From IMG/VR virus record IMGVR_UViG_3300009285_005933, positions 1-44,928 of that record: a DNA stretch of 44,928 nucleotides. One strand, 5' to 3'. Numbering within the stretch: position 1 is the stretch's first letter; each line of letters starts with the position of its first letter. Under the pieces are notes generated by a model. The model searched no databases. It saw only the letters and a list, made by a program, of their open reading frames with translations, and had not been told where the DNA came from. Position numbers and translations under genes: made by a program. This DNA is from a virus. This document shows positions 3,178 through 44,558 of the stretch, piece by piece.

Positions 3178-3551
3178 ACTCCCTCTTTGGAGCTAGCCTC
3201 CCCACTCCAGACTCCGCCACCCCTCCTACCTTCACTCGAGTAGACTGGCCCGCGGTTGCTACCATCTCTCCCCGAGTAGACCTCCTCGGCCTTGACTCCG
3301 CGGAACTCTGGTACTTCCTCGGGGAGTTCCGAGAGACGCTATTCTACTCCTATGACTCTCTCGGAACCCTTGGAGTAACTTGTCGCCCAACTATATCCTG
3401 CCCCCACTTTAGCGGATGGACGATCACTAGCCCTCTACCTTTCTTTCCTAGCTGCGCTCAGAAGATACCACTCCCACTACTCCCTGAGGCTCGCTGCCTC
3501 CTCACCCTTCAACTCTCCCTGGAGAATAACCTCTTATGCCTCCACTCTTAA
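3171..3551 (+). CDS. Hypothetical protein, 126 aa
   Basis: The ATG overlaps the end of the previous gene. From here on the base composition shifts to the CTC/TCC-rich style of the phage core. The middle (LDSAELWYFLGEFRETLFY) looks protein-like. The TAA stop lies inside the 25-bp palindrome at 3544, just as stops of secure genes do at 10931 and 14849, which supports this frame. Function unknown. Confidence 0.5.
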   Translation: MVDSLFGASLPTPDSATPPTFTRVDWPAVATISPRVDLLGLDSAELWYFLGEFRETLFYSYDSLGTLGVTCRPTISCPHFSGWTITSPLPFFPSCAQKIPLPLLPEARCLLTLQLSLENNLLCLHS

Positions 3552-9515: not shown

Positions 9516-9615
9516 GATTCAGGTTAACCAACTCGAGAAGGCTCTCTCGGGGCTAACCTTGGAGCAGCTCGAAGCACTCCAACTATCACTCTTGGAAGGA
9601 AACTCAGATGGGTAG
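9370..9615 (+). CDS. Hypothetical basic helical protein, 81 aa
   Basis: ATG inside the previous gene with AGGGA 8 nt upstream. The N-terminal half is helical and basic (EALEALIQIRQKRRDRFAQ), the C-terminal half helical and acidic (LEKALSGLTLEQLEALQLSL). It overlaps the next start by 8 nt. Function unknown; an alternative view is that it is the frameshifted end of the gene at 9183. Confidence 0.55.
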   Translation: MDLLTQRKGLLQLPRAEALEALIQIRQKRRDRFAQKRAVGGIRTPRKGKIQVNQLEKALSGLTLEQLEALQLSLLEGNSDG

Positions 9616-10933
9616 CGAAGTTCTGATGCTTAACATTCCGATGGCTAATATAGCCTTTGGGGATAGAGTCCGGCAGGACTATAAGAATGTAGACACGCTC
9701 GCCTCCGATATCCAGAGGCGCGGGCTTATCCACCCAATCGCGGTACTCGCTACCCCAGGGGCCGAGAAGCCTTATCTCCTTCTTGCGGGTGGCCGCCGCT
9801 ACCTTGCCCTTGCTCTCCTTAGCACTCCCACCATTCCCTGTCGAGTCTACGAAGGGGAGCTCTCCACCCTTGACCGGAAGGAACTTGAGCTCTACGAGAA
9901 CCTCCAGCGGGAGAACCTAACCTACGCGGAACAAGTCGCCCTCACCAAGGAGATCCACGAGTTAGAGGTAGAGAAGCACGGCGCCGCGCTTGGCCCCTCT
10001 CCAGGCCAGTCTATGAGTGACACCGCTGCCATGCTTGGGAGGAGCGCTACCCAAGTCTCCCAAGATATAGCCCTCGCCCGCGCTATCGAGGAGAACCCCG
10101 AACTCGCTCAGCTTCGTAACAAGCACGAAGCGATGAAGGCCCTCAAGAAGCAGCAGCAAGAACTCTTGGACAAACTCCAAGTTGCTACCTTCGCTGCGAG
10201 CCAGCCCACGGCCACCACTCTCCTCAAGCAGAAGATCATAGATAGTTACCTCGTCGAGGACTTCTTCACTGGTGTTCAGAAGCTCCCAGATAGGACTATG
10301 AACTTCGTGGAGCTAGACCCACCCTATGGTATAGAGATGGACACCTCTATGAAGGGTGGGGAGATCACCACCAAAGACTACAACGAGGTAGATCGCGCAA
10401 CCTACCCCGAATTCATCACCCACGTTGCGAGGGAGTGCTACCGAGTCCTTCTCCCCAATGGGTGGCTCATCGCTTGGCACTCTGCCCAACACCACTCTGC
10501 CGTTAAGGCTGCTCTGGAAACCGTGGGGTTCCGAGTGGCTCCTGTGATGGCTGTCTGGGTAAAGCTCGCCGCAGGGATGACTCACCAACCCTACCTAACT
10601 CTCGCCTCTCAGTGGGAAGGCTTCTTCTACGCCTCTAAAGGCTCTCCCCAACTCATGAAAGGGGGAGTGGGAAACACCTTCCTCTATAAGCCCCCGGACG
10701 TAGCCCGGAGAATCCACCCAGTCGAGCGCCCACTCCTTCTTATGCAGGAGCTCGTCTCGCTATTCTGCCCGCCCAACGGCTACATGCTAATCCCCTTCGC
10801 TGGAAGCGGGGTGACTATTCTCGCCGCCCACAACCTCTCGATGAAGGCTATCGGGTTCGACCTATCTCAAGTTTACAAAGACGCCTTCGCTGCCCGCGTT
10901 GTCTCGGCGGATCTCCCGTTCATAACTCTTTAA
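9608..10933 (+). CDS. ParB-like / DNA methyltransferase fusion
   Basis: 441 aa. Residues about 1-110 form a ParB/Srx-type domain (RQDYKNVDTLASDIQRRG, LLAGGRRYLALALL, YENLQRENLTYAEQ). A helix-turn-helix follows near 130-160 (MSDTAAMLGRSATQVSQDI). The C-terminal half is an amino-methyltransferase with the catalytic DPPY at 237-240 before the AdoMet motif FAGSG near 397-401, the beta-type order. Likely role: site-specific adenine or N4-cytosine methylation guided by the ParB/HTH part, protecting phage DNA or marking sites. ATG with AAGGAAAC upstream. The TAA stop lies inside the palindrome at 10925. Confidence 0.88.
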   Translation: MGSEVLMLNIPMANIAFGDRVRQDYKNVDTLASDIQRRGLIHPIAVLATPGAEKPYLLLAGGRRYLALALLSTPTIPCRVYEGELSTLDRKELELYENLQRENLTYAEQVALTKEIHELEVEKHGAALGPSPGQSMSDTAAMLGRSATQVSQDIALARAIEENPELAQLRNKHEAMKALKKQQQELLDKLQVATFAASQPTATTLLKQKIIDSYLVEDFFTGVQKLPDRTMNFVELDPPYGIEMDTSMKGGEITTKDYNEVDRATYPEFITHVARECYRVLLPNGWLIAWHSAQHHSAVKAALETVGFRVAPVMAVWVKLAAGMTHQPYLTLASQWEGFFYASKGSPQLMKGGVGNTFLYKPPDVARRIHPVERPLLLMQELVSLFCPPNGYMLIPFAGSGVTILAAHNLSMKAIGFDLSQVYKDAFAARVVSADLPFITL

Positions 10934-10955: not shown

Positions 10956-11318
10956 ATGCGTCCGATGAAAGTCTACATCGCGGGTCCCTACTCCACCGAG
11001 GACCCAATCAAGAATACCGCTCGAGCTATTCGGGCGGGAAACGAGTTACTCAACCGGGGCTATTGCCCCTTCATTCCCCACCTATCACACTTCTGGCACC
11101 TTCAACACCCACAAGAGTGGGCTACCTGGATAGAGTATGATATCCAGTGGCTAGACTCCTGTGACGTGTTGCTCAGGTTGGTAGGCTCCTCTCGAGGCGC
11201 AGACCTTGAAGTAAAACATGCCTACCGAAACCGAATCCCTGTGGTAATAGAGGGCCCTGGGGACTTGGAAGCTCTCGCTCTCTTGAGGGAGGAACTAGGT
11301 GCACGCGGCATATTGTGA
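10956..11318 (+). CDS. Nucleoside 2-deoxyribosyltransferase-like (DUF4406-type) protein
   Basis: 120 aa. The N-terminus MKVYIAGPYS, the central WLDSCDVLLRL and the segment GSSRGADLEVKHA (with the candidate catalytic Glu) match the nucleoside deoxyribosyltransferase-like fold. Such phage proteins may act in nucleotide salvage, base modification or NAD-type metabolite turnover. Start at 10956 is chosen over the upstream TTG at 10941 because the palindrome provides GAGGAG 7 nt before it. It overlaps the polymerase start by 20 nt. Confidence 0.75.
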   Translation: MRPMKVYIAGPYSTEDPIKNTARAIRAGNELLNRGYCPFIPHLSHFWHLQHPQEWATWIEYDIQWLDSCDVLLRLVGSSRGADLEVKHAYRNRIPVVIEGPGDLEALALLREELGARGIL

Positions 11319-13713
11319 AGGCCCACTCGAGGCCAAGATTTGCCTAATCGGTGAGGCACCCGGGAGGGACGAAGTAGCCGCTGGTCGCCCCTTCGTCGGA
11401 CGGGCCGGGCAAGTTCTCAACCGAACCCTTATCGCTGCGGGGATACAGCGACACGAGGTACGAATCGAGAATGTGTTTCAGTTCAACCCAGTGGGGAATA
11501 ACATAGCCCCGTATATCGAGTTTCGCTCAAAGGGGCCACCTAAGATCTCTACGGAGTTCCTGGAAGCGCGAGAAGCACTGTTCCATCGCCTCCGCGATTG
11601 CTACGCGAACGTGTTGGTGCCCTTTGGGAATGTCCCACTCTACGCCCTAACGGGTATCGACCAACCGGCTATCACTAAGCGCCGAGGATCTATCTTGTGG
11701 TGCGAGGAGCTATCTCGTAAGGTCGTGCCTTGTATCCATCCAGCGGCTGCCCTCGAGCACCGAGACCCGATGAGTGAGTTCCTTATCGCCCATGATCTAC
11801 GGAGAGCGGTAGCCCAGAGTGCCTTTCCCGAGAGACACCCGCGGGAGCGGAATCTACGCCTCGAGCCATCCTTCACTGAAACTCTTGAGTTCATTCGGTA
11901 CTGTAGTACTCTCGAGTCCTGCGCGGTAGATATCGAGACTGATATCACCGTCAAGGAGATGACCCACCTAAGTCTGGCTTACTCCGCAGACGAGGCCATC
12001 TGTATCCCCCTCTCAGACGGCGCTAAGGACTACTGGTCCCCCGATCAAGAGCTCGAGATTATGGAGGCTATCCAAAGCCTCCTTGAGAATCCCGCTGTGC
12101 GAAAGGTGGGGCAGAATATCACCTTCGATGCTACCTTCCTCTTTACTCGCTTTGGCATCGTGACCCGCCCGGTGGACGATACGATGGTAGCCCAAGCCTT
12201 CCTCATGCCGGACTATCCTAAGGGCTTGGACTTCATCACCGCCATGTATTGTGCGGGGGAGCCCTACTATAAGGACGATGGGAAGGCGTGGCGCGCGGGC
12301 TCCTTAGTCTCCAGTGAACTCTCCTTCCGTCGCTACTCCGCAATGGATTCTGCCGTGGTGATGGAAGCCTTCCCCCAACAGCGTCGAGACCTCGAGCGAC
12401 AGAATAACTGGGACGCCTATCGCCGACAAGTAGCCCTAATCGAGCCCTTGGTTTATATCGCTACCACCGGTGTCCAGATGATCCCAGAGAAGCTGGTCCA
12501 AGGAAGTGAGGCTACTGGGGCCCGCTGCCAAGAGCTCCTCGATATACTTCGTAAAGACGCTGGTCCCGAGTTCAACCCAGATAGCCCTAAGCAAGTCGCG
12601 GACTTCTTCTACATCACCCTGGGGAATCGTGCCTACTACGGGAAGAGTGGCTCCCCCACCACCGACGACAAAGCGCTCAAGCGGCTTGCCAGCAAAGGTG
12701 TAACTCAAGCCGATATCCTTCTTGAGTACCGCCACCTCGCCAAGATGAAGGGAACCTACTACGACATAACTCTCGACCCAGATAACCGCCTCCGCTGCTC
12801 TTGGAACCCGGTGGGGACTAAGCAATCACGGGTGTCCAGTTCCAAGACTATCTTTGGGACCGGCGGAAATATGCAGAACCAGCCTCCCGAGATGAGCTCC
12901 GCTATGATCGCGGACCCAGGCAACATCTTTATAGAGCATGACCTAGCCCAGGCAGAGAACCGCGTTGTTGCCTACATCTCTCGAGACATCCGGATGAAGG
13001 AAGCCTTTGCTCAAGGTATCGACCTCCACCGTCTTACCGCTTCCCTTATTTACGGCGTCCCGATTGAGATGGTAACCCTCGAGCAGCGCCAGTGGGGCAA
13101 GCGCGCGAACCATGGGCTCAACTATGACCTCGGTCCAGGACAGTTCGCTATCTATTACCAGATCACCCAACCCGAGGCTAAGTTCATCGTGGAGCGCTAC
13201 CACGAAACCTATCCCGGGGTCCGCGAGTGGCACCGTTCCATTAGGGACCAGCTCGCTAAGAGTCGTACCCTTGTTAACCTTCTTGGCCGCGCCTACCAAT
13301 TCCGCACTCCCTGGAGTGTAGACTTATTCAAGCAGGCTTACTCCTACGTCCCCCAATCTACTGTCGCGGGCGTCCTTAACGAGTGGGGGATGGTCTACCT
13401 CTACCAGCACCAAGACCTATTCCCAGAGGTAAGCCTTGTAAACAACGTCCATGACTCTGTTAAGTACCAAGTCCCGCTCTCAGTAGGCCCCTCCCGAATA
13501 CTCGAGATCATTCGACTAATCGCCACTAACCTCTCCCAGCCACTCTTCCACCAAGGCGAATCCTTCATAATCCCCACCGATACCGCTATCGGGTTCACTA
13601 TGGACAAGCCCACCATGCTGGAGTGGAAAGCAAAGAAGGTATCCACCACTCCTGACGCTGCTTTGGTAGAGGAGCTCGAGTCCTATGTCAAGGGAAGTGC
13701 CGGACTGGGTTGA
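11299..13713 (+). CDS. Uracil-DNA glycosylase domain fused to family A DNA polymerase
   Basis: 804 aa. Residues about 1-160 are a family 4/5-like uracil-DNA glycosylase (GEAPGRDE at 18-25, GRPFVGRAGQ, NVFQFNP, later CIHPAAAL) but lack the usual N-terminal Cys pair. A 3'-5' exonuclease follows with VDIET, the GQNITFDATF box and YSAMD. The polymerase has motif A DLAQAENR, motif B R-x3-K-x3-H-x3-Y, and motif C VHDS in place of VHDE. His605 stands where E. coli Pol I has Phe762. GTG start with GAGGGAGG upstream. This is the replicative polymerase, with a built-in uracil-sensing or repair module. Confidence 0.9.
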   Translation: MHAAYCEGPLEAKICLIGEAPGRDEVAAGRPFVGRAGQVLNRTLIAAGIQRHEVRIENVFQFNPVGNNIAPYIEFRSKGPPKISTEFLEAREALFHRLRDCYANVLVPFGNVPLYALTGIDQPAITKRRGSILWCEELSRKVVPCIHPAAALEHRDPMSEFLIAHDLRRAVAQSAFPERHPRERNLRLEPSFTETLEFIRYCSTLESCAVDIETDITVKEMTHLSLAYSADEAICIPLSDGAKDYWSPDQELEIMEAIQSLLENPAVRKVGQNITFDATFLFTRFGIVTRPVDDTMVAQAFLMPDYPKGLDFITAMYCAGEPYYKDDGKAWRAGSLVSSELSFRRYSAMDSAVVMEAFPQQRRDLERQNNWDAYRRQVALIEPLVYIATTGVQMIPEKLVQGSEATGARCQELLDILRKDAGPEFNPDSPKQVADFFYITLGNRAYYGKSGSPTTDDKALKRLASKGVTQADILLEYRHLAKMKGTYYDITLDPDNRLRCSWNPVGTKQSRVSSSKTIFGTGGNMQNQPPEMSSAMIADPGNIFIEHDLAQAENRVVAYISRDIRMKEAFAQGIDLHRLTASLIYGVPIEMVTLEQRQWGKRANHGLNYDLGPGQFAIYYQITQPEAKFIVERYHETYPGVREWHRSIRDQLAKSRTLVNLLGRAYQFRTPWSVDLFKQAYSYVPQSTVAGVLNEWGMVYLYQHQDLFPEVSLVNNVHDSVKYQVPLSVGPSRILEIIRLIATNLSQPLFHQGESFIIPTDTAIGFTMDKPTMLEWKAKKVSTTPDAALVEELESYVKGSAGLG

Positions 13714-18600: not shown

Positions 18601-20714
18601 GCGAGCTTCTTCAACGCTGCCTTAGGAGTCTCCACAGGGGTCTCTACTGAAATCGCGGCTCCCGGAGCGATCTTCCTTACCTTGAATCCCGCAGGTAACT
18701 CTGTCCGTCCCACCCTCTGCGGCCTTGCCTCCGCGGCCCTCTGTAGCATCCGCTCGCTTTCAGATTCCTCCACTCTTGAAGAAATTCTTAAGAAGCTTGG
18801 GATCTCTCCACCCCGCGCAGGGGGCTCTCGGAGAGCTTCCTCCGCGTCCAGTCTAGCCTGCTCTTCAGGCTTTCTCGACTCCTTCTGCATCTCCACCATG
18901 AGGCGCGCAAGGTCCTCATCGGTGAAGTTCTTTCGCCCCGCGGCTATGCCTCGGAACCTTCGCTTCTGGAGACCATTCGCAGGAGGTGTAGGCTCTACCA
19001 CTGGAGGAGCTACCTCTACCTTCTTCGCCGTGGGCCTCGCCTTCTTACTTTCTCTACTCGCGGCAATCTTCTTCTTAGCCAGAACGAAGCTAGTCTCTCC
19101 CGTGGCCTTGTAATTCAACCAATCCAGCAACCCCTCCCCAGCTACATCATCCGGGTTAAGCTCATTCCACGTCCGTAGCATCTCCGCTTGAGCCTTTTCA
19201 TAAACCGAGAAAGCTCGAGAGGGATCTTTACCTACAGCTAGTCTACTTTCCGCACTCTCTGCCGCGAGAGCTGCTGCATCGAAGGCCGCGTCCAACCTCA
19301 CGCTACCCTTACGTGGCGTCTTCAGGGGAATATCTACTGGAGTGTTGTCCGGTATTCCTATGGAAGTCCCATCCTCGATAGCATTTTGGTTACCCAAATC
19401 TAACGCTTGCCTCGCGGGCTCTTCATGGGGCTCTACCCCATTCAGCACATTGTAGAGGCTCTGCCATCTTCGAGCCTCTTCCACCGTGACCCGAGTCTCC
19501 CCAGTGAGTACCTCCGCAGTCTTGAGCTCCCGCGCGGCTGCCACATTCCCAAGAAGGTCAATCCGGCGCCCGCGAGAAAGGTTCGCCACGCTAGTCTGGG
19601 CCCCTACCACACTAAGGGCCTCCCCACTAGCCCGAAGAGGAATAGTCCCATACCTCTGGTCGCTCCCAGCTTCCCGAGCTCCCCATCTCGCGGCCATTCT
19701 ATCCGCTAGTGGCGTGGTAGCCTGCTCCTCTTGTGGCCCTCTCGCCCAAGCTGGGAGACCCCCCGCGAGTAGATCGCCTTCTTCTCCCGAGACTATACTC
19801 CCTCTCTGCTTCTTGTTCTGCTGCATCCGCCAAAGCATCCCGTGGGAAATACCGCCTCCTACAAACCCCCCCGCGAAGCTCTGCATCGTCCCATCAAGTA
19901 TTCCCACCTCTCGAAAGTTTCCATCCTCCACAGCCCGCGCACCCTTGACTAGCGCGTTCTGCATGAGCTGCTCCGCAACCTCCTCCGCCCCTTCGATAGC
20001 CCCCACTTCGGCCGCCCCACGAATAGCCGCGGGAATGTTCCGTATTAGAAGGCTTCTCCCAATCCCCTCGATTAGGTGCGCAGGAGCCTTGGCCAACGCC
20101 GCCCGTAGAAGCACCGAGCTTCCCAGCTCCGCAGCGAAGGCTGTCGCCCCAAAGCCCACCGCAAGAGCTAGCTCAGTCTCCCCGCTTACCTCTTGCCCAG
20201 TTTCCTTCTCATAGTCATATACCATTCTCCGCGCGGAGCCCGCGTTCTGGGCTGCATATAGCCCAAACGTAGCCCATAGCGCAGGGATTCCTACCATCGG
20301 TGCGGCCACAGCCAACCCCAGGGCTGCTGTCGTAGGGGCCACGCTCCCCAAGGCGCTCCCAAGAAACTCCCCAGCTCCTTGCGCGGGCCTAAGAATCTCT
20401 CCACGCCTCTGAGCCTCTACCGACTTGTCAAAGAACCCCGCGGTAGCATAGAGATCACTCGCCGTGAGATCTCCAGTGGGTAGACTTCTCCAGAAGGCGT
20501 TCCAAGTACTCTCCATCGCCCCTGCGTAGGGAAGGACTCCAGCCTTACCCCAGAAGTTTACCTCTACCTGTTCTTGCTGGTCCGAATCCAGCTTACCCCA
20601 TCGGGAGTCTTTCTTCACCTGCTGATTGAAGTACCTCTCCGCAACTGTAGACTTTCCCTTCTCAGAAAGCCCCTTCCACCGCGGGTCCTGCTGGATACTC
20701 TGGAACCCTGCCAT
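15570..20714 (-). CDS. Large polyvalent/ejection-type virion protein with zincin motif, 1714 aa
   Basis: Two short tandem motifs open the protein (DPRWKGL, DSRWGKL). An Ala/Gly-rich hydrophobic region follows (about 90-270), then a long charged linker (about 300-720). A metallopeptidase motif GHEAFH occurs near residue 808. The C-terminal third holds LSSPTTQLVNVGGN and FPFVNTLSNILQRGLEMAPG, resembling domain LPD38 of large polyvalent proteins. Proteins of this type in podoviruses are carried in the capsid and injected, and some domains act in the host. It is the last gene of the late block. A palindrome element sits inside it at 18772. Confidence 0.75.
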   Translation of the reverse strand: MAGFQSIQQDPRWKGLSEKGKSTVAERYFNQQVKKDSRWGKLDSDQQEQVEVNFWGKAGVLPYAGAMESTWNAFWRSLPTGDLTASDLYATAGFFDKSVEAQRRGEILRPAQGAGEFLGSALGSVAPTTAALGLAVAAPMVGIPALWATFGLYAAQNAGSARRMVYDYEKETGQEVSGETELALAVGFGATAFAAELGSSVLLRAALAKAPAHLIEGIGRSLLIRNIPAAIRGAAEVGAIEGAEEVAEQLMQNALVKGARAVEDGNFREVGILDGTMQSFAGGFVGGGISHGMLWRMQQNKKQRGSIVSGEEGDLLAGGLPAWARGPQEEQATTPLADRMAARWGAREAGSDQRYGTIPLRASGEALSVVGAQTSVANLSRGRRIDLLGNVAAARELKTAEVLTGETRVTVEEARRWQSLYNVLNGVEPHEEPARQALDLGNQNAIEDGTSIGIPDNTPVDIPLKTPRKGSVRLDAAFDAAALAAESAESRLAVGKDPSRAFSVYEKAQAEMLRTWNELNPDDVAGEGLLDWLNYKATGETSFVLAKKKIAASRESKKARPTAKKVEVAPPVVEPTPPANGLQKRRFRGIAAGRKNFTDEDLARLMVEMQKESRKPEEQARLDAEEALREPPARGGEIPSFLRISSRVEESESERMLQRAAEARPQRVGRTELPAGFKVRKIAPGAAISVETPVETPKAALKKLAKVEGVAEEDFSILDETPAADESVEGEGMVDEGNLIFQGRRVEGSKVPTLMERQRLVGPLQAAGVLNMVIQSSGQLWGPDGRPKNAILDRETGTVYLSEDVAWNTVGHEAFHRLVDLMGREHPKIAAGLDLFGGDAEKAGDAVGDYYAIRSRAGMVGRIGLWLKEMWAAAKSDFGLSLTQDEFVKAANIRLKGPWNGRGQEGYEFQERLYYSNKQEEKSSAVDERFEAQSKEREEKYIGNLNTERVVLTDAVKKVLTEQVEPNIERTKLSNQELMARAKRIIQERGRKGVMQIAARFSKTGRISLEESLAMRMLEVGDGTYLIQRFLDEPDDRVRRVLGEQLLEEAENRFRGASKLAADAGRRLQAYNIMVDPQTILSWAAKADLGKDLREKLKQMIDDGSIFEVDVFKRFAREVKKPEALDWLRAFVYVNWLSSPTTQLVNVGGNTLFLTMQMGQRALEAGVDAALSSKIVQAIRPSHAPRARQIFLDEVLAMWQGVETAKTKNNEAIKAQISWRLGGKRGVEPPALHEVFGGSSKLDIEMNSAYNPFEHVEGKLKGLATAFTLPTTGMRYADLYFKSLAYDAQMNALAVRESHKTGRSTSDILADPSDELIAQAVKFSTYATLMERDSVTNSLIRLRDKTKVGFFLFPFVNTLSNILQRGLEMAPGAGVLPLLYRVSQGKDSVQSLVAKQMMGASLALMLALAFDDEDDGEWRLTGAAPTHPAYKDAFYGQGKVPYAVKIKNSWVSYRKAEPLALPLAMVADFIRYVNDTPTNPNLEGVDKAIDMFSGVAAVLTETVIAGSVLENFAAFSEKQGWTQRFTNIPTGLIPYSSFWRSLARATEAWNTGDAKVRESLTLLNVLGQVIPSSSLQEYAKPRLNRWGEEIVLPGGVFRQWLPYKWSETKHDAVEIELRRLDLVGQPSGVGFPQNSFEYLGKRYLMSDEFYRDYLLSYGKAGKEALGRLFASPGYARLTDVGKTKAMGRTLGKVRAPITSRAHRDWVSSGAAEVR
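15622..15660. terminator. Imperfect hairpin at the convergence of the two gene blocks
   Basis: The segments AATGGGCGCCCGGACC and GGGTCCGCCCCATT can pair imperfectly across the loop TTACCCA just after the last + strand stop, inside the 3' end of the - strand gene. It could stop + strand transcription. Pairing is not perfect, so this is tentative. Confidence 0.35.
18772..18796 (-). repeat. 25-bp palindrome element, copy 5, inside a coding region
   Basis: On the + strand the arms read ACTCTTGAAGAA and TTCTTAAGAAGC. It lies in the linker of the 1714-aa gene and encodes part of SFLRISSR. It is the most diverged copy, and the only one deep inside a gene. Confidence 0.65.
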
Positions 20715-36800: not shown

Positions 36801-39800
36801 AGGCTCCCCGCGATAAATAGGTCCTTCGGAGCCCCAGTCAACTTAAGCGTTCCAGTCGTGCTAATTGGCCCCCCGGTGATTCCACTATCGCTAGCCACAT
36901 TCGTAACAGTTCCAGCTCCAGCCGCGGCCATTTGAGAGAGCACCCATCCCCGGTTGGCAACCTGTAGCGACTCCGCTGGGTCCACTGCAACGAATAGGCG
37001 CTGTGCGCGGGTGGTATCAGTCACCGCGTCCCCCAGTGTCGCCCCGCCGGTCTGCCAGGTGCCGCCCTCGCCGTCGAGAATCCAGACGGTGGTGTTGTAG
37101 TTGCGGATAGAGAACAGGTTGCCGTTTGCCGCTACAGCCTGACCACCCGCGCCGCCATTAGTGACAGCGACGTTGGCGTTAATGATACCGTAGCCCGCCG
37201 TTGATTTAGTGGTGTTTGCAGCCTCTCCCAGATAGCCGATCAAACTCAGGGCATACCCAGCAATGCCAGCACTGTCTTTGTATCCACGGATCTGAAGGCC
37301 GCCCGATGTGTCCTCGGCCTTACGGAAATCTCCCCAGGTGGTCGCATCAGCGTCACCAGTGAACGGGTGTGCTACCTCTGATGCTTGAAATGTCAAAGCG
37401 TTATCGTCGTTAGCTCCCTGCGCCACGAGCAGCGACGGCCCAGCGGCGAAGGCGGAGGCCGTAGCGGTGCCGATGAGGACGGGACCACCTTTCTGTAGCG
37501 CCAAAATATCTGTGCCAGATTGAGGATCACCATCAGCAGCAGCACTAACAGTGAAGTTCATGTCCCCGTAAACATTGCGATTGGTCGAGATGGACCAGTT
37601 GCGAGCATCTGGTTGTGCTGCAACTGTAGTATACATTCGCAACACAGTTCTACCGGGACTAGTAACCCTCATGCCGTCAATAGTGGCCGTAACGACATCC
37701 AATGGGTAGCCCGGGCTCACCGTCCCGATGCCGACGTTGCCGCTGCCCAGGACGGTGACGAGGTTGGTGCCGTAGTTATCTAACTGCATCACCGTTTCGG
37801 AAGCGTCAAGAGCTTGCCAGCCAGTGCTGCCATTAGTTTTACCACCACGGATGTTGATAGCAGGTCTGGTGTCAGCGGGATTAATTGATCCAATAATTCC
37901 AGTTAGCACCATACCAGTGCCGTCGTCATCCGATAAGCCCCACAGACGAACACCTCCCACTGTATCGCTAACTGGATCTATGTGTAGTAGTGCATTGGTT
38001 GGCGCTAAGGCCGTCATCCCATGCACTATATCCGCATCCGTCAGGCTGAAGTTCCCATCCCGCAGGTCTAGCTTGCTCGCGGGAGCAGCGATACCGATGC
38101 CGACGCCAGTAGAGGTAACAGATGCTATCAGCGTTCCTGTGCGTGTCGCGTTGTTGGCTGCGGCGTATAAATTGATCGCCGTAGCTGCATTTGTACTAGC
38201 GTCACCCCCACCCAGGCTGACGACATTCGTCGCTGTTCCACCAAAGCCAAGTAGCGTCGAAAAACCTTCAGTCTCCGTCCCACTATCGTAGTTCGGAGTG
38301 ACCAGCTGGAAGTACTTGTTTGCATCATCAGTAGAGACATTTGATCCTGTAATTATGCCAGAACCACCTACGAAGTTAATATCTCCTGCTGCTGTAATGC
38401 TGACTGCCGGGTTCGGCGACCCGTCGCTGGCGCTCAGTTCCGAGTGCCGATGGAGCGCGTCCGCCATCGAGTCGTCCCGCAGCGTATTCAAGTTCGCCAT
38501 CGACCCAGTGTAAGCGACACCCCCGAGCTTGAAGTTCGTCGCCGTGCTAATGTTGGCTGATGCCGCCGTCAGCCCTGTCGTGAACGTGCTCGCAATCGTC
38601 GAGGTCAGCCCCGCCGGGAACGTCGCCAGACCGGTCAGCGTCGAGGTCCCCGTTACCTTCAGCGTCGAGGCCGTCAAGCCGCCCGTGAACGCCGGCGCTA
38701 GAGCGCTCGTCACTGGGCCATCGAGATTCGTAGTGCCCGTTACCTTGATCGAGGAGGCAGTCAGTCCCCCAGAGAAGCTCGGTGCGAGGGCACTCGTCAC
38801 TGGGCCATCGAGATTGGTCGTCCCAGTTACCGTAATACTGGAGGCAGTCAACCCCCCACTGAAAGCAGGCGCCAGCATCGAGGTGACCGGCCCAGTCAGT
38901 TGTAGGCTAGCGATCTTCGCGTGGTTCGCGGTCAACCCCCCGCTAAACACTGGGGCCAACGCAAACGTCGCGGGGCCCGCAGACTGTAGACTCGCTATCT
39001 TTGCGTGGTTAGCCGTCAAGCCCCCGCTGAACACCGGAGCTAGTGCGAACGTAGCGGGACCAGTAGCCTGAAGACTTGTGACCTTCGCATGGCTCGCGGA
39101 GAGACCCCCAGTGAAACTGGGGGCTAAGGCACTCGTAATAGGCCCCACAAAGTTCATCGTGCCAATGAATCTTGTAGTGCCCTTAATCGTATCTGGGGTG
39201 ACTGAAGTAGCCGCTATTGTCTGCCCCGCGGGAATTACCAATCCCCCATCGGCCCTCACCACTCCCGAGAATACCAATGAGTCAACCGTAGAATCCTCAA
39301 AGCGAATCCGAATACCCCCCACGATGCCTATCACCGCTCCATCAGTAACCTGAATAGAGTCTGCGGTAAAGAGTACCGTGTCCAGCGCGGAGTTCCCAAA
39401 GGTTACCTTCCCCTGCGTAGTAAGCAGCCTAACCGCCGCAGAGTCCAGAAAGACCAACCCATTAACACTGTCTACCTGAATCGCCCCATGGTTATTTCTC
39501 AGGGAGTCCCCAAAGGCTACCCTCAACAGAGTAACCGAAGTGTCTCCTACGATAAGCTTAAGCGCGGTTACCGAGTCCACCAGCGCTTGCCGAATACTAT
39601 CACTCGTGTCCGATAGAACTCCGCGAATCTCCAACATCGAGTCGGGAAGCGCTACGCCGGTCACGCTACTACGAATAGCACTCGCTGTATCCGCGAGCTC
39701 TGGCCGTCTAATCGCGGTCCCACCCCACTGAGCATAAACGCTAGTAGCCCCCAACACCAAGGCTACCAGCGCACTCTTCAAGAAATTCTTATAGAGTCTC

Positions 39801-40238: not shown

Positions 40239-40760
40239 TTAGCTTCCCTCAGTTATGATGGTACCTCGTGCGATAGTGGGACGGGCCTCGGAGATTCGAC
40301 GAATCTCGGGGATTGCCCACTCCAGAAGAGCCTGGTATGTAGCAATTCCTGCGGGAGGAGTCACATCTTTGTTGAGCGGCACGGCCGCATCGCCGTCTCG
40401 GAACACCCAATGGAGGCGGAGAGCTACCTTGAGGGGACCGCTGCGCACGATCACCCGCTCGTCGTAGCTTGCGCGAGAGATAGTAGAATCCTTGGCCGCA
40501 AAGGTCTCCACTAGCTCCAGCGCGCCCAAGTATTCTTCGGGCAATGCCCTCCCAAGCATTACCTCGACGGGGCTAACCGCGGAGTCCAGCGGGGTTCTGG
40601 TAAGCACGATAAAGCGGTGCTGCACCGTGCCGCTCTCTTGGAGAAGATGAGTAGCCACAAACAGGGAGTCCTCGGCAACGACTAGGGGACGTCGCTCGCT
40701 TTGCTCGCCGGAGCAAGCAACGAGTAGTACTACGCAGAGGAGGGAGGATAACTTCTTCAC
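40239..40760 (-). CDS. Lipoprotein, 173 aa
   Basis: The N-terminus MKKLSSLLCVVLLVAC has a basic start, a hydrophobic core and a lipobox LVAC, with the acylated Cys followed by SGE. The mature part has mixed strands and helices (LFVATHLLQ, HRFIVLTRTPLDSA, QALLEWAIPEIRRIS) with no known domain. GTG start overlaps the TerS stop (GTGA), with CAGGAG upstream. Phage lipoproteins often block receptors or DNA entry of rivals, which fits its place beside the fibre, but this is inference. Confidence 0.75.
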   Translation of the reverse strand: MKKLSSLLCVVLLVACSGEQSERRPLVVAEDSLFVATHLLQESGTVQHRFIVLTRTPLDSAVSPVEVMLGRALPEEYLGALELVETFAAKDSTISRASYDERVIVRSGPLKVALRLHWVFRDGDAAVPLNKDVTPPAGIATYQALLEWAIPEIRRISEARPTIARGTIITEGS

Positions 40761-41263
40761 GCTGCAATCTCCTGGAACTCCACTACGAGGGGTTCCTCTA
40801 TAGAGTTGTGGTTGCGTGCGCGGGCCTTAATCTCCTCGATCTTCTCAGAGGTAAGGAACCCATGCGCCACGGCGGCTTGGACCTTCTGAACCCTACCGTA
40901 CCCCGCGCGAGATAGCAAATCGCAGGCTACCTGAACCCGGAGCTTGATCGGGGCGTCTGGAGCATCCCGGACTTCTTGTAGGAGCTCCAGACTCCTCACG
41001 GCGTCTTCCTGAAGCGCCTCCATCACGTCGATAGTAGCCCCGTCCGCTTGAGCCTGGAGCATCTCCAAACGCCGCTGGACGATGGGGCTACTCAATACAT
41101 CATGCACATTCTGGGGGGTTCGCCCGGTGATCTGGGCAATATCCCGCTGGTGAAGCCCCAGCGCCGCGAGACGGATCATCTCGTGGTGGGTCTGCTGGAT
41201 CTTCTGGACAGCATATCCGGTACCCGCGTCCACTTGGAGTACCGTGGGGGAAGTCCGGGACAT
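40757..41263 (-). CDS. Terminase small subunit (candidate)
   Basis: 168 aa. An N-terminal HTH (HHEMIRLAALGLHQRDIAQI, then GRTPQNVHDVLSS) is followed by a helical oligomerisation region (QEDAVRSLELLQEV) and LRVQVACDLLSRAGYGRV, as in many phage TerS proteins that recognise the packaging site. It is near the head of the late block. It is far from TerL, so the call rests on domain pattern. Confidence 0.65.
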   Translation of the reverse strand: MSRTSPTVLQVDAGTGYAVQKIQQTHHEMIRLAALGLHQRDIAQITGRTPQNVHDVLSSPIVQRRLEMLQAQADGATIDVMEALQEDAVRSLELLQEVRDAPDAPIKLRVQVACDLLSRAGYGRVQKVQAAVAHGFLTSEKIEEIKARARNHNSIEEPLVVEFQEIAA

Positions 41264-41987: not shown

Positions 41988-42016
41988 TTGACACAGAAGG
42001 GGGAATACCATAGATT
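41988..42016 (+). promoter_or_regulatory. Promoter P3 (TTGACA, 17 nt, TAGATT)
   Basis: -35 41988-41993, -10 42011-42016. One mismatch to the TATATT of the other copies. It faces the gene at 42104 after an 88-nt leader. The whole gap 41651-42103 holds P2, a palindrome element, the 14-bp dyad and P3, but no gene I trust. Confidence 0.78.
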
Positions 42017-42103: not shown

Positions 42104-42565
42104 ATGGGGAATAAGACCATGAATGGCACTAGGACCGAACCCACCACTCCCGCGATTGTTCCTGAGATCGCGAAGAAGCAGGAAGGGGTACAGAAGCAGT
42201 CCATGCCGGCACCCTACGCCGGTCCGTGGACCTACGCGACGCGGGGCAAGGCAATCGGGGACCAGCGAATCACTCTGTCCGTGAGCATGGATGGAGTGGG
42301 ATGGGACAAGATTCTCTACCTCGCTGAGCGCGAACTCGCCCGGATGGTTCAGGACTGGATTCGGAGGCAGTCCACCTTGAAAGGCCCGATGTTGGAGTCT
42401 CTCAAGAGGGACAGCAAGGCGAGCATCACCTTCGCGGATCTCGAAGGCAGGCTCCGCGTCCAGCCGGACCAGACTCCGCAGCAGTTGATCAATAAGTTGC
42501 TACTGATCTGCGGAGGGGACAAGGAAAAGGCGTTGGAACTTCTCGACGCCTTGGGGAACAAGTAG
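42104..42565 (+). CDS. Hypothetical early protein, 153 aa
   Basis: N-terminal 40 residues are polar and Pro-rich. Residues 48-90 are strand plus helix (ITLSVSMDGVGWDKILYLAE, then RMVQDWIRRQ), followed by a basic stretch and a C-terminal UBA-like or helical end (NKLLLICGGDKEKALELLDAL). SD before 42104 is poor; ATG at 42119 with GGGA upstream may be the real start. Unknown function; first gene of the P3 unit and followed by a strong hairpin. Confidence 0.65.
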   Translation: MGNKTMNGTRTEPTTPAIVPEIAKKQEGVQKQSMPAPYAGPWTYATRGKAIGDQRITLSVSMDGVGWDKILYLAERELARMVQDWIRRQSTLKGPMLESLKRDSKASITFADLEGRLRVQPDQTPQQLINKLLLICGGDKEKALELLDALGNK

Positions 42566-42591
42566 GACAAGGTAGCACCAAAGCCCGAGGG

Positions 42592-42619
42592 GAAGGTAGG
42601 GGAACTCGCCCCTACCTTC
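42592..42619 (+). terminator. Perfect 11-bp hairpin after the 42104 gene
   Basis: Arms GAAGGTAGGGG and CCCCTACCTTC, loop of 6 nt, 26 nt after the stop. No T run, so termination may be partial or factor-linked. Confidence 0.65.
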
Positions 42620-42713
42620 TAAGGAACGGGGAAGGTCCCAAGTCCTTCCAAAGAGAGAAAGAAATAGGAACCTGGAGATGGCAATCTCTCCCTATTCCTT
42701 CCTATCTCTCGGG

Positions 42714-42738
42714 ACTCTTCAAGAAATTCGTGAAGAGT
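42714..42738 (+). repeat. 25-bp palindrome element, copy 12
   Basis: Arms ACTCTTCAAGAA and TTCGTGAAGAGT, nearly perfect symmetry (one mismatch). It is in a non-coding region and lacks the SD-type change. Confidence 0.92.
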
Positions 42739-42765
42739 GGGCACTAATATAGGAAATTTGGGGGC

Positions 42766-42796
42766 GGGGGAATGGTACTAGCGGGGCTATTCCCCC
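42766..42796. repeat. Hairpin-forming inverted repeat in the non-coding region
   Basis: Arms GGGGGAAT and ATTCCCCC with a 15-nt loop, between the palindrome element and the large inverted repeat. Confidence 0.6.
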
Positions 42797-42817
42797 CTCT
42801 AACATTCAGGGACCCGA

Positions 42818-43050
42818 CTACCATTCTATTATTCTATGTTTGTATTACGGGGGTACCCCTGCTCCCTCCCGAGATCCCCCCGGAACTTCCTTAAGGCTTC
42901 TTATAAAAAAAAATATATAATGAAAAGGTACATTCAGGGGTGAGAGTGGTGGAAGGGGCGAAAGGTGGGAGAGAGGGAAAAGTGGCAAGAGGGGATATCG
43001 AGGGGGCAGGGTTAGCCCCGTAATACAAACATAGTTTGGTAGAATAGTAG
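42818..43050. repeat. Large inverted repeat flanking an AT-rich tract (origin-like region)
   Basis: A 19-bp perfect core lies at 42834-42852 (CTATGTTTGTATTACGGGG) and, inverted, at 43016-43034. Imperfect matching extends each arm to about 60 nt (42818-42881 and 42991-43050). Between them are an AT-rich tract at 42898-42926 with nine A in a row, and a purine-rich stretch from 42936 to about 43010. The 10-mer ACATTCAGGG occurs at 42802 and 42930. The gap 42566-43153 has no believable gene. A replication origin or control region is the leading guess. Confidence 0.6.
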
Positions 43051-43071
43051 GAATAAAGGAAAAGATTTCCC

Positions 43072-43100
43072 TTGACAAAGAGGGATGTTAGCGGTATATT
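43072..43100 (+). promoter_or_regulatory. Promoter P4 (TTGACA, 17 nt, TATATT)
   Basis: -35 43072-43077, -10 43095-43100. It lies 22 nt past the right arm of the large inverted repeat and faces the HNH gene. TTTCCC before and GGGAT after the -35 box faintly echo the operator at P6. Confidence 0.85.
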
Positions 43101-43153: not shown

Positions 43154-43444
43154 ATGGAAGTCAGGCTAGAGCAGGTGCTGCTGAACGTGCGAAAGTTGGA
43201 GAGTGGTTGTTGGGAATGGTTAGGCCCTTGGTACAAAAATGGAAGGGGATGTATTCGTACCGAAACAGGAGAAGTAGACGCGGCAAGAGCCATGTGGATA
43301 GCAGTATACGGACCATTGGCTAAGCAGCGCGGGATTCACTTTAGATGCCGAAATAAAGAGTGCGTGAACCCCGCGCATATGTACCTTTGGAATCCTACCA
43401 AACGGATGGTGCGGGAGAATAAGCAGGAACTGTTTACTCCCTAG
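43154..43444 (+). CDS. HNH endonuclease, short
   Basis: 96 aa from the ATG at 43154, with AGGGAGAG upstream; an in-frame start further up would overlap promoter P4. The core reads GCWEWLGPWY, ARAMWIAVYGPL, then H-F-R-C-R-N-K-E-C-V-N-P-A-H, an HNH_3-like site with the terminal His. There is no C-terminal HTH, unlike the HNH at 4447. Probably a free-standing homing-type enzyme with its own promoter. Confidence 0.8.
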   Translation: MEVRLEQVLLNVRKLESGCWEWLGPWYKNGRGCIRTETGEVDAARAMWIAVYGPLAKQRGIHFRCRNKECVNPAHMYLWNPTKRMVRENKQELFTP

Positions 43445-43462: not shown

Positions 43463-43491
43463 TTGACAGAGATCGGAACCTTTCGTATATT
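43463..43491 (+). promoter_or_regulatory. Promoter P5 (TTGACA, 17 nt, TATATT)
   Basis: -35 43463-43468, -10 43486-43491. AGTCCATC, the core of the upstream box seen at P1 and P6, lies 12 nt before the -35, about one helical turn nearer than at P1 and P6. Confidence 0.85.
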
Positions 43492-44069: not shown

Positions 44070-44150
44070 ATGAATCGCCTAGCAAGCATTCTCACCGTCC
44101 TCGCCACTTCTTACCTCACCACCCGCGTCCTTCTTTGGGCGCTTCACTAG
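44070..44150 (+). CDS. Possible 26-aa membrane peptide
   Basis: ATG with TGGAG 9 nt upstream; the peptide (NRLASILTVLATSYLTTRVL) is one hydrophobic helix with a basic start and ends LLWALH. It stops 3 nt before the palindrome at 44154. The arrangement of stop, palindrome and next gene fits the pattern of true gene junctions here. Confidence 0.45.
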   Translation: MNRLASILTVLATSYLTTRVLLWALH

Positions 44151-44153
44151 TCC

Positions 44154-44178
44154 ACTCTTCAAGATATTCTTGAAGAGT
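44154..44178 (+). repeat. 25-bp palindrome element, copy 13
   Basis: Arms ACTCTTCAAGAT and TTCTTGAAGAGT around one base. It precedes the gene at 44197, whose own SD (AAAGGAAG) lies just after the element. Confidence 0.92.
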
Positions 44179-44196
44179 AGAAAGGAAGTACTCCCT

Positions 44197-44499
44197 ATGA
44201 TCTCGGAGATCCCACGCGAAGAGCCAGAGGACGATATCGAGCGGCTTGTGAAGGAGCTCCAAGCCACGCCCCTAGTGGAAGTCCCGGTAGCCTTCCTGGA
44301 GCTACTGGTAGATTTGGCGGTCGCCTCGCTGCTCAGCATGAGCACGAAGGGACTCTTGCAGAAGCTCCCCCCACAGGAGCTCTACTCCCTCTTGGCTCCC
44401 ATCGCCTGGGCAAGCGAGAAGTTTCCAGAGAACCTCCTGATCAAGCAATGGGAAGCCACCATGGACGCCATGGGGAAGGAAGGAGAAAGCCCCGGATAA
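44197..44499 (+). CDS. Hypothetical acidic protein, 100 aa
   Basis: ATG with AAAGGAAG 8 nt upstream. The N-terminus is strongly acidic (REEPEDDIERLVKELQ), the middle helical and hydrophobic (VAFLELLVDLAVASLLSM), the rest helical. It could be a small anti-host protein, as expected in an early region, but there is no family match. Confidence 0.65.
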   Translation: MISEIPREEPEDDIERLVKELQATPLVEVPVAFLELLVDLAVASLLSMSTKGLLQKLPPQELYSLLAPIAWASEKFPENLLIKQWEATMDAMGKEGESPG

Positions 44500-44514: not shown

Positions 44515-44558
44515 TATACGAAATATCCCTTGACAACCCACGGGATATTTCGTATATT
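44515..44558 (+). promoter_or_regulatory. Promoter P6 with overlapping 15-bp operator-like inverted repeat
   Basis: -35 TTGACA 44530-44535, -10 TATATT 44553-44558. A perfect inverted repeat (TATACGAAATATCCC at 44515-44529, GGGATATTTCGTATA at 44542-44556) encloses the -35 box and covers most of the -10. A bound protein would block RNA polymerase, so this promoter is likely repressed or autoregulated. Confidence 0.85.

Follow-up and report, generated by a model that had tools for sequence, protein, structure and literature searches.

The early-gene boundary and its features

The window, by which we mean the whole 44,928-nucleotide stretch of viral DNA that was analysed, has a bidirectional gene layout: the minus strand carries the late genes, which reach to about 41.65 kb, and the plus strand the early genes, which begin at 42.1 kb. 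The features considered here lie around the leading end of the early genes:

41988-42016, plus strand: sigma-70-like promoter (TTGACA-17-TAGATT) ahead of the leader gene, agreeing with 10 of 12 consensus positions, a consensus match only
42104-42565, plus strand: leader gene, a 153-aa ORF of no known family that ends 18 nt upstream of the ribozyme
42584-42647, plus strand: type-P5 twister ribozyme (Rfam RF02684, 43.3 bits against a gathering cut-off of 37.6)
42592-42619, plus strand: twister stem P1, 11 bp, -20.1 kcal/mol
42678-42752, plus strand: 24-aa ORF, 30 nt past the ribozyme; AGGA precedes its ATG by 8 nt
42714-42738: 25-bp palindrome with 11 of 12 pairs, one of 13 copies
42772-42894, plus strand: 40-aa ORF
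42818-42868: left arm of the long inverted repeat, 51 nt, 84% ungapped match to the right arm
42901-42921: 100% AT core, a candidate unwinding element
42940-42999, plus strand: G-rich purine stretch between AT core and right arm
43000-43050: right arm of the long inverted repeat, 51 nt
43072-43100, plus strand: sigma-70-like promoter (TTGACA-17-TATATT) directly right of the long repeat, 11 of 12 consensus positions
43154-43444, plus strand: HNH-endonuclease-like gene, probable ATG at 43154 (PHROG 1872, E 6e-16 for the longer frame)

A preliminary description of the region 42566-43071 treated it as one origin-like block of stacked inverted repeats into which no gene fits. Its individual structures are all present: the perfect 11-bp hairpin (42592-42602/42609-42619), the palindrome element, an 8-bp hairpin (42766-42773/42789-42796; 8-bp inverted pairs are common in the window), and the long inverted repeat, which has a 19-bp perfect core, extends to about 60 nt per arm at 82% when gaps are allowed, and encloses an AT tract (A9, 42905-42913) followed by the G-rich purine stretch. 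The region does not behave as one block, since it consists of three elements, namely the P1 hairpin of a twister ribozyme, a member of a genome-wide palindrome family and the long inverted repeat; neither the twister identity of the first hairpin nor the family membership of the palindrome had been suspected. That no gene fits is correct for genes of ordinary size, but small ORFs exist, of 24 and 40 aa on the plus strand and of 77-93 aa, with TTG or ATG as start, on the minus strand. The ORF at 42678-42752 is a possible small gene or relic.

The leader gene had no PHROG or Pfam match, and no relative of it was found in viral_contigs. The Pfam match of the HNH-like gene (HNH_3, E 9e-5) lies under the Pfam cut-off. 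A search for tRNA genes returned none, and blastn in the phage collection found no close DNA relatives of the region. Promoter-like sites of the form TTGACA-17-TATATT occur four times within 2.8 kb (41779-41751, 43072-43100, 43463-43491 and 44530-44558). Elsewhere in the window, a single protein (11299-13710) has a uracil-DNA-glycosylase-like domain N-terminal to DNA polymerase A, and a 1988-aa ORF contains two long tandem repeats, with periods of 87 and 84, at 38646-39099.

A type-P5 twister ribozyme behind the leader gene

With type-P5 twisters in general (RF02684), the copy in the window shares the conserved core, P1, P4, the pseudoknots T1 and T2, P2 in part, and the U-A cleavage site, which places the predicted cut between U42620 and A42621. 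Our own twister model, whose alignment includes the window sequence, scores it at 52.5 bits. An Rfam scan of the whole window gave no second match at the cut-off and nothing else credible at a relaxed threshold, leaving a single twister. P1, more stable than 117 of 144, and the 4-bp P4 (AAGG/CCUU) are intact, T1 pairs as GGG/CCC and T2 as AC/GU, and the paired substitutions in P4 and T2 relative to the Rfam consensus indicate selection on the fold. The copy departs from the family in P2, which consists of two G-C pairs and a C.A mismatch at the outer pair; this outer pair is unpaired in just five of 142 sequences, the window among them.

The ribozyme begins 18 nt past the stop codon of the leader gene, and downstream of it there is only the 24-aa ORF. 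Related records lack the twister (0/8 others, 0/6, and 0/16, where three of the 16 are controls). In the relative G025, the gene adjoining the repeat is followed, 18 nt past its stop codon, by a 7-bp hairpin and TTTTT, a gap equal to that of the twister in the window; a consensus scan reported the hairpin on the other strand only, and this gene has no detectable homology to the leader gene.

In the leader-gene mRNA, the twister would cut between U42620 and A42621. Because P1 lies 5' of the cut in type P5, the upstream mRNA would keep the stable P1 hairpin and have a 2',3'-cyclic phosphate as its 3' terminus, and the downstream RNA would start with a 5'-hydroxyl. Cleavage would form a 3' end in place of a terminator, such that the leader-gene mRNA stops before the origin-like element. 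It is from the motif, the covarying fold and the position that we infer cleavage in vivo and its use in 3'-end formation.

Twisters between genes in other viral contigs

Scanning viral contigs with the twister core as a pattern gave at least 119 loci. Rfam, applied to 15 of them, confirmed 57 twisters, with confirmation in all 15, and 55 of these matches together with the window sequence made up alignment A1 (L046:8013-8091 and L053:10171-10221 were excluded). When 91 of the at least 119 loci were examined with our own model, 60 had a twister, and the matches listed comprise at least 145 twisters in 98 sources. The same pattern in prokaryote genomes led to a model match (E 0.01) in three of 80 loci examined, out of at least 118.

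The fold is well supported by covariation. Across 142 distinct sequences, 19 of 19 pairs, pseudoknots included, change on both sides, and T1, T2, P1, P2 and P4 all covary in an alignment that was fitted to P1, P2 and P4 of the model, but not to T1 and T2. In the same sequences 96.5% of alignment cells pair, compared with 64.6% in shuffles, and sliding abolishes the signal. P1 is stable across the set (median -14.6 kcal/mol, versus -5.2 for shuffled sequences).

The placement rule of stop codon, ribozyme and ribosome-binding site in phages was measured here with 134 of the 145 twisters, after 11 near stretch ends had been dropped. Among the matches listed, a same-strand ORF of at least 60 aa ends no more than 60 nt upstream or about 12 nt downstream of the 5' edge of the twister in 106/134 cases (20% at random), a ribosome-binding site and start follow within 70 nt downstream in 119/134 (22% at random), and both hold for 96/134, compared with 6% of random same-strand positions. 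Counted per contig, with the window as one, 38 of 50 have at least one listed twister in this geometry, and at every locus with three or more listed twisters all copies lie on the same strand. In addition, 10 of the 145 matches listed have an upstream ORF whose stop codon starts within the ribozyme itself, in its first 6 nt.

Whole virus records contain up to 20 twisters (G008), with 15 in G004 and 14 in G012. By Rfam, the loci L253-L256 (G008, G012, G004 and G001) have 11-20 type-P5 matches each. The genes between array twisters, as far as tested, have mostly no known function. Comparison of the array phages with GenBank phages gave no counterpart; one comparison yielded two 63-nt matches in a protease gene, the others none.

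Twister ribozymes were reportedly described by Roth et al. in 2014. One review calls their biological role speculative (PMC5408937). For another ribozyme class, Perreault et al. (2011; PMC3088659) describe hammerhead arrays around single prophage genes, with cleavage demonstrated in vitro, and propose that they process long phage RNAs to single-gene mRNAs. Twister-array viruses resemble these prophages in having several ribozymes around single genes, but the ribozyme class is different, there are up to 20 twisters per virus record, and the stop/start geometry has been measured; the window has only one copy. In a further article, twister and hammerhead ribozymes are linked to Mu-like phage genes for reasons reported as unknown (PMC10085705). 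No paper on arrays of type-P5 twisters lying between the genes of phages came up in searches of an open-access library, and an earlier description is possible.

The strict intercistronic placement (96/134) suggests that operon transcripts may be trimmed autocatalytically. In such operons, nearly every stop codon would be separated by a twister from the ribosome-binding site that follows, and the transcripts would self-cut, without any protein, into single-gene mRNAs with a 3' P1 hairpin, a cyclic phosphate and a 5' hydroxyl. 3' ends with a cyclic phosphate and 5' ends with a hydroxyl withstand the common decay enzymes of bacteria, and by extension both ends of the trimmed phage mRNAs would resist the usual decay enzymes of the host. 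Strict stop-ribozyme-start geometry in viral operons offers a concrete and testable role for twisters. More tentatively, and with somewhat more doubt than belief, we propose that many phages punctuate their early operons with self-cutting type-P5 twisters, and that the lone copy in the window may serve as a terminator substitute just before an origin-like element that a clade of phages keeps by its shape and not by its letters.

A long inverted repeat around an AT core

With a score of 27, the long repeat outranks every other inverted repeat of the 44,928-base record, the runner-up scoring 16, and also the best of 30 Markov-1 shuffles, which reaches 17. The 20-mers of its AT core are the only 100% AT 20-mers of the record, and the GC skew is +0.76 across the part of the spacer to the right of the core. 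Short tandem repeats are significant in the left arm (p 0.010), but not in the right (p 0.444). No second copy of the repeat was found in the record, and its core, used as a pattern, had no match in viral_contigs. An arm-coded protein was considered and rejected by eye, since the arms, although in a common frame, diverge at positions that change amino acids.

Recurrence of the layout in related viruses

A search with the major head protein found relatives at 48-63% identity. G025 (50,318 bp; major head protein 60% identical) is syntenic with the window, lacks the twister, a counterpart of the leader gene and the palindrome of the window, and has a best inverted repeat that surrounds the AT-richest tract of the record and contains 7-nt tandem repeats in each arm. 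The same layout is seen in OP947158, a complete GenBank phage with a 43% identical head protein.

In a formal test, we asked whether the best inverted repeat of a record encloses its AT-richest 20-mer. This is the case in seven of 16 related records besides the window (G025, OP947158, G021, Mel-JY34, VS-ABTNL-3, MW202489 and MW202554, with ties for the AT-richest 20-mer in VS-ABTNL-3 and MW202489) and in none of 13 control records (Fisher p 0.008), nor in any of 56 viral stretches, for which the minimum spacer was 100 rather than 60. The test was framed after four positives (the window, G025, OP947158 and G021); among the records that came later, four of 13 pass, compared with 0/13 controls. 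The nine failures (Kuura, PaMx41, CRP-810, Aeromonas P5, Tiera, EBPR3, MW202455, TF17 and BK063670) are mostly found among the more distant relatives.

The 16 related records are 10 and 4 from two relative listings, plus G025 and G021; two of 16 listed Pseudomonas records were tested. G021, related by a 27% terminase match only and no closer than two of the controls, was included because it looked positive, and without it the count is 6/15. Five of the 13 controls distantly match one window protein, namely BalMu-1 and FP_Mushu (terminase), Yakult and G023 (polymerase) and G017 (HNH); they were assigned as controls before the test. The 24.5 kb fragment G020 failed the test and is outside the 16-record count, and the fragment G024, the fetched part of which apparently ends short of the region, was left out of the test.

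The AT core lies between the arms in all eight positives, the window included. Positives other than G021 were oriented with the early genes to the right. By eye, the repeat is at most about 2 kb from the divergence of early and late genes in the window and in six of the seven other positives, those with gene order. Short tandem repeats reach p<0.03 in both arms in four of the eight positives (OP947158, G025, VS-ABTNL-3 and G021), in one arm in the window and MW202489, and in neither arm in Mel-JY34 and MW202554. Among six repeats failing the layout test, tandem repeats occur on both sides in BK063670 and on one side in G010; iterons alone are therefore not specific. Genes to the left of the repeat in three records have no homology by pairwise BLASTP. 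The records share a layout, not one sequence. The dyad conservation that the preliminary description had named as a test is thus found for the layout, but not for the letters.

A putative origin and its alternatives

Inverted initiator sites that flank an AT-rich unwinding element are known from archaeal ORB/DUE origins, lambda ori and iteron plasmids. The repeat resembles these origins in its inverted arms, its AT core, the adjacent early genes and, in some records, short direct repeats; it is unlike them in that its sequence varies by record, and the origin is a putative one for which no initiator gene was identified. A search on origins in an open-access library listed no paper that matches the repeat layout. 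The recurrence of the same layout with different letters in related viruses suggests a start site of DNA copying, and on the strength of layout, genome rank and recurrence, 42818-43050 is most likely a phage replication origin, a cis-acting DNA element. The inverted arms, partly with short direct repeats, would bind an initiator on both sides of the AT core, and the core would melt. The earlier origin or control-region reading is strengthened, if still unproven, for the long repeat and its AT tract, but does not extend to the whole block. On balance we lean slightly towards a joint reading in which this putative origin and a type-P5 twister in the leader mRNA are adjacent elements at the leading end of the early module. 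It would provide an origin candidate that is defined by layout and holds a fixed position in a clade of which some members are cultured (Microcystis phage Mel-JY34 and Vibrio phage VS-ABTNL-3). The repeats of these two phages lie at 44129-44291 and 40665-40790, respectively.

GC skew, suggested earlier as a check, was considered as proof of an origin and rejected: the cumulative minimum in the window (41,994) is 0.8 kb from the repeat, near the transcription divergence, and follows transcription. In three records the minimum is 0.8-1.6 kb from the repeat, confounded by transcription.

Early RNA of phage T7 is cut at RNase III hairpins, and the long repeat might similarly act as RNA, by forming a stem of about 50 bp in the part of the early transcript that separates the leader gene from the HNH gene; the stem could be a target of host RNase III, an attenuator or a stability element. 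The plus strand folds with a z of -6.5 (-103 kcal/mol), and the repeat lies between two same-strand promoter-like sites and beside a ribozyme, which makes RNA processing likely nearby. However, the minus strand folds as strongly (z -6.8), and a processing stem does not need the long, AT-cored loop that is present in 8/8 records and that fits DNA unwinding, so that we regard an RNA role of the repeat as unlikely. Less probable still is a site of DNA packaging, recombination or attachment. Large inverted repeats do occur at such sites in general, but the repeat keeps to the point where the early module begins, and the large terminase gene lies at varying distances from it, about 10 kb in the window and about 2.4 kb in OP947158; no integrase was found among the proteins searched, a subset of the ORFs. 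A remnant of a mobile element with the arms as terminal repeats, raised in the preliminary description, would account for the inverted arms and the HNH gene next door, yet the arm ends show neither a transposase nor a target-site duplication and the record has no second copy; like-placed repeats in relatives speak for a resident element, and we consider such a remnant highly improbable.

A separate doubt concerns the ribozyme part only. The twister in the window could be a decayed, inactive copy without a role, given the C.A mismatch at a nearly invariant P2 pair and its occurrence as a single copy that no relative has kept. All other paired elements are intact, however, P4 and T2 carry paired substitutions, and the site behind a stop codon matches that of copies in other phages. 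We therefore think decay rather unlikely and prefer a functional twister.

Dispersed palindromes

Besides the copy in the region, at 42714, the 25-bp palindrome occurs at 3544, 7424, 10925, 14844, 18772, 21797, 25908, 28444, 33812, 39773, 41817 and 44154. Twelve of the 13 copies were found by pattern; the one at 18772 is weaker. They lie mostly at gene junctions, about 1-6 kb apart, and by eye seven of the 13 have AAGGAG or GAGGAG within one arm and, on the same strand, an ATG 5-6 nt beyond the palindrome, an overlap with the ribosome-binding site. As a pattern in viral_contigs, the window palindrome had no match. An RNA hairpin was rejected by eye, as changes between copies are mostly one-sided, which favours a DNA site.

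Palindrome families of their own, with other letters, are present in G025 (8 copies), OP947158 (9) and the fragment G024 (4), and none was found in the more distant related records examined. In OP947158, five of nine palindromes are wholly intergenic, compared with 4.9% of the record, and the copies carry no ribosome-binding site. The window, G025 and OP947158 each have one copy that neighbours the long repeat. To judge by their letters, the families differ between relatives as if the specificity of a binding protein had diverged. If the readings proposed here are true, a control region could be kept by its shape while its letters and companion repeats diverge.

Start-associated sequences of cluster K mycobacteriophages, described in PMC3203893, which also names the L5 stoperators, are comparable in that they, too, are short repeats scattered over gene junctions, and some of them overlap the ribosome-binding site. 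The elements in the window are unlike them in being 25-bp palindromes with a sequence of its own in each relative, and the letters of the window palindrome differ from the start-associated-sequence consensus given in PMC3203893. The window also encodes a DNA methyltransferase fused to a ParB-like N-terminal domain (9608-10930), and this protein could be a candidate reader of the dispersed palindromes.
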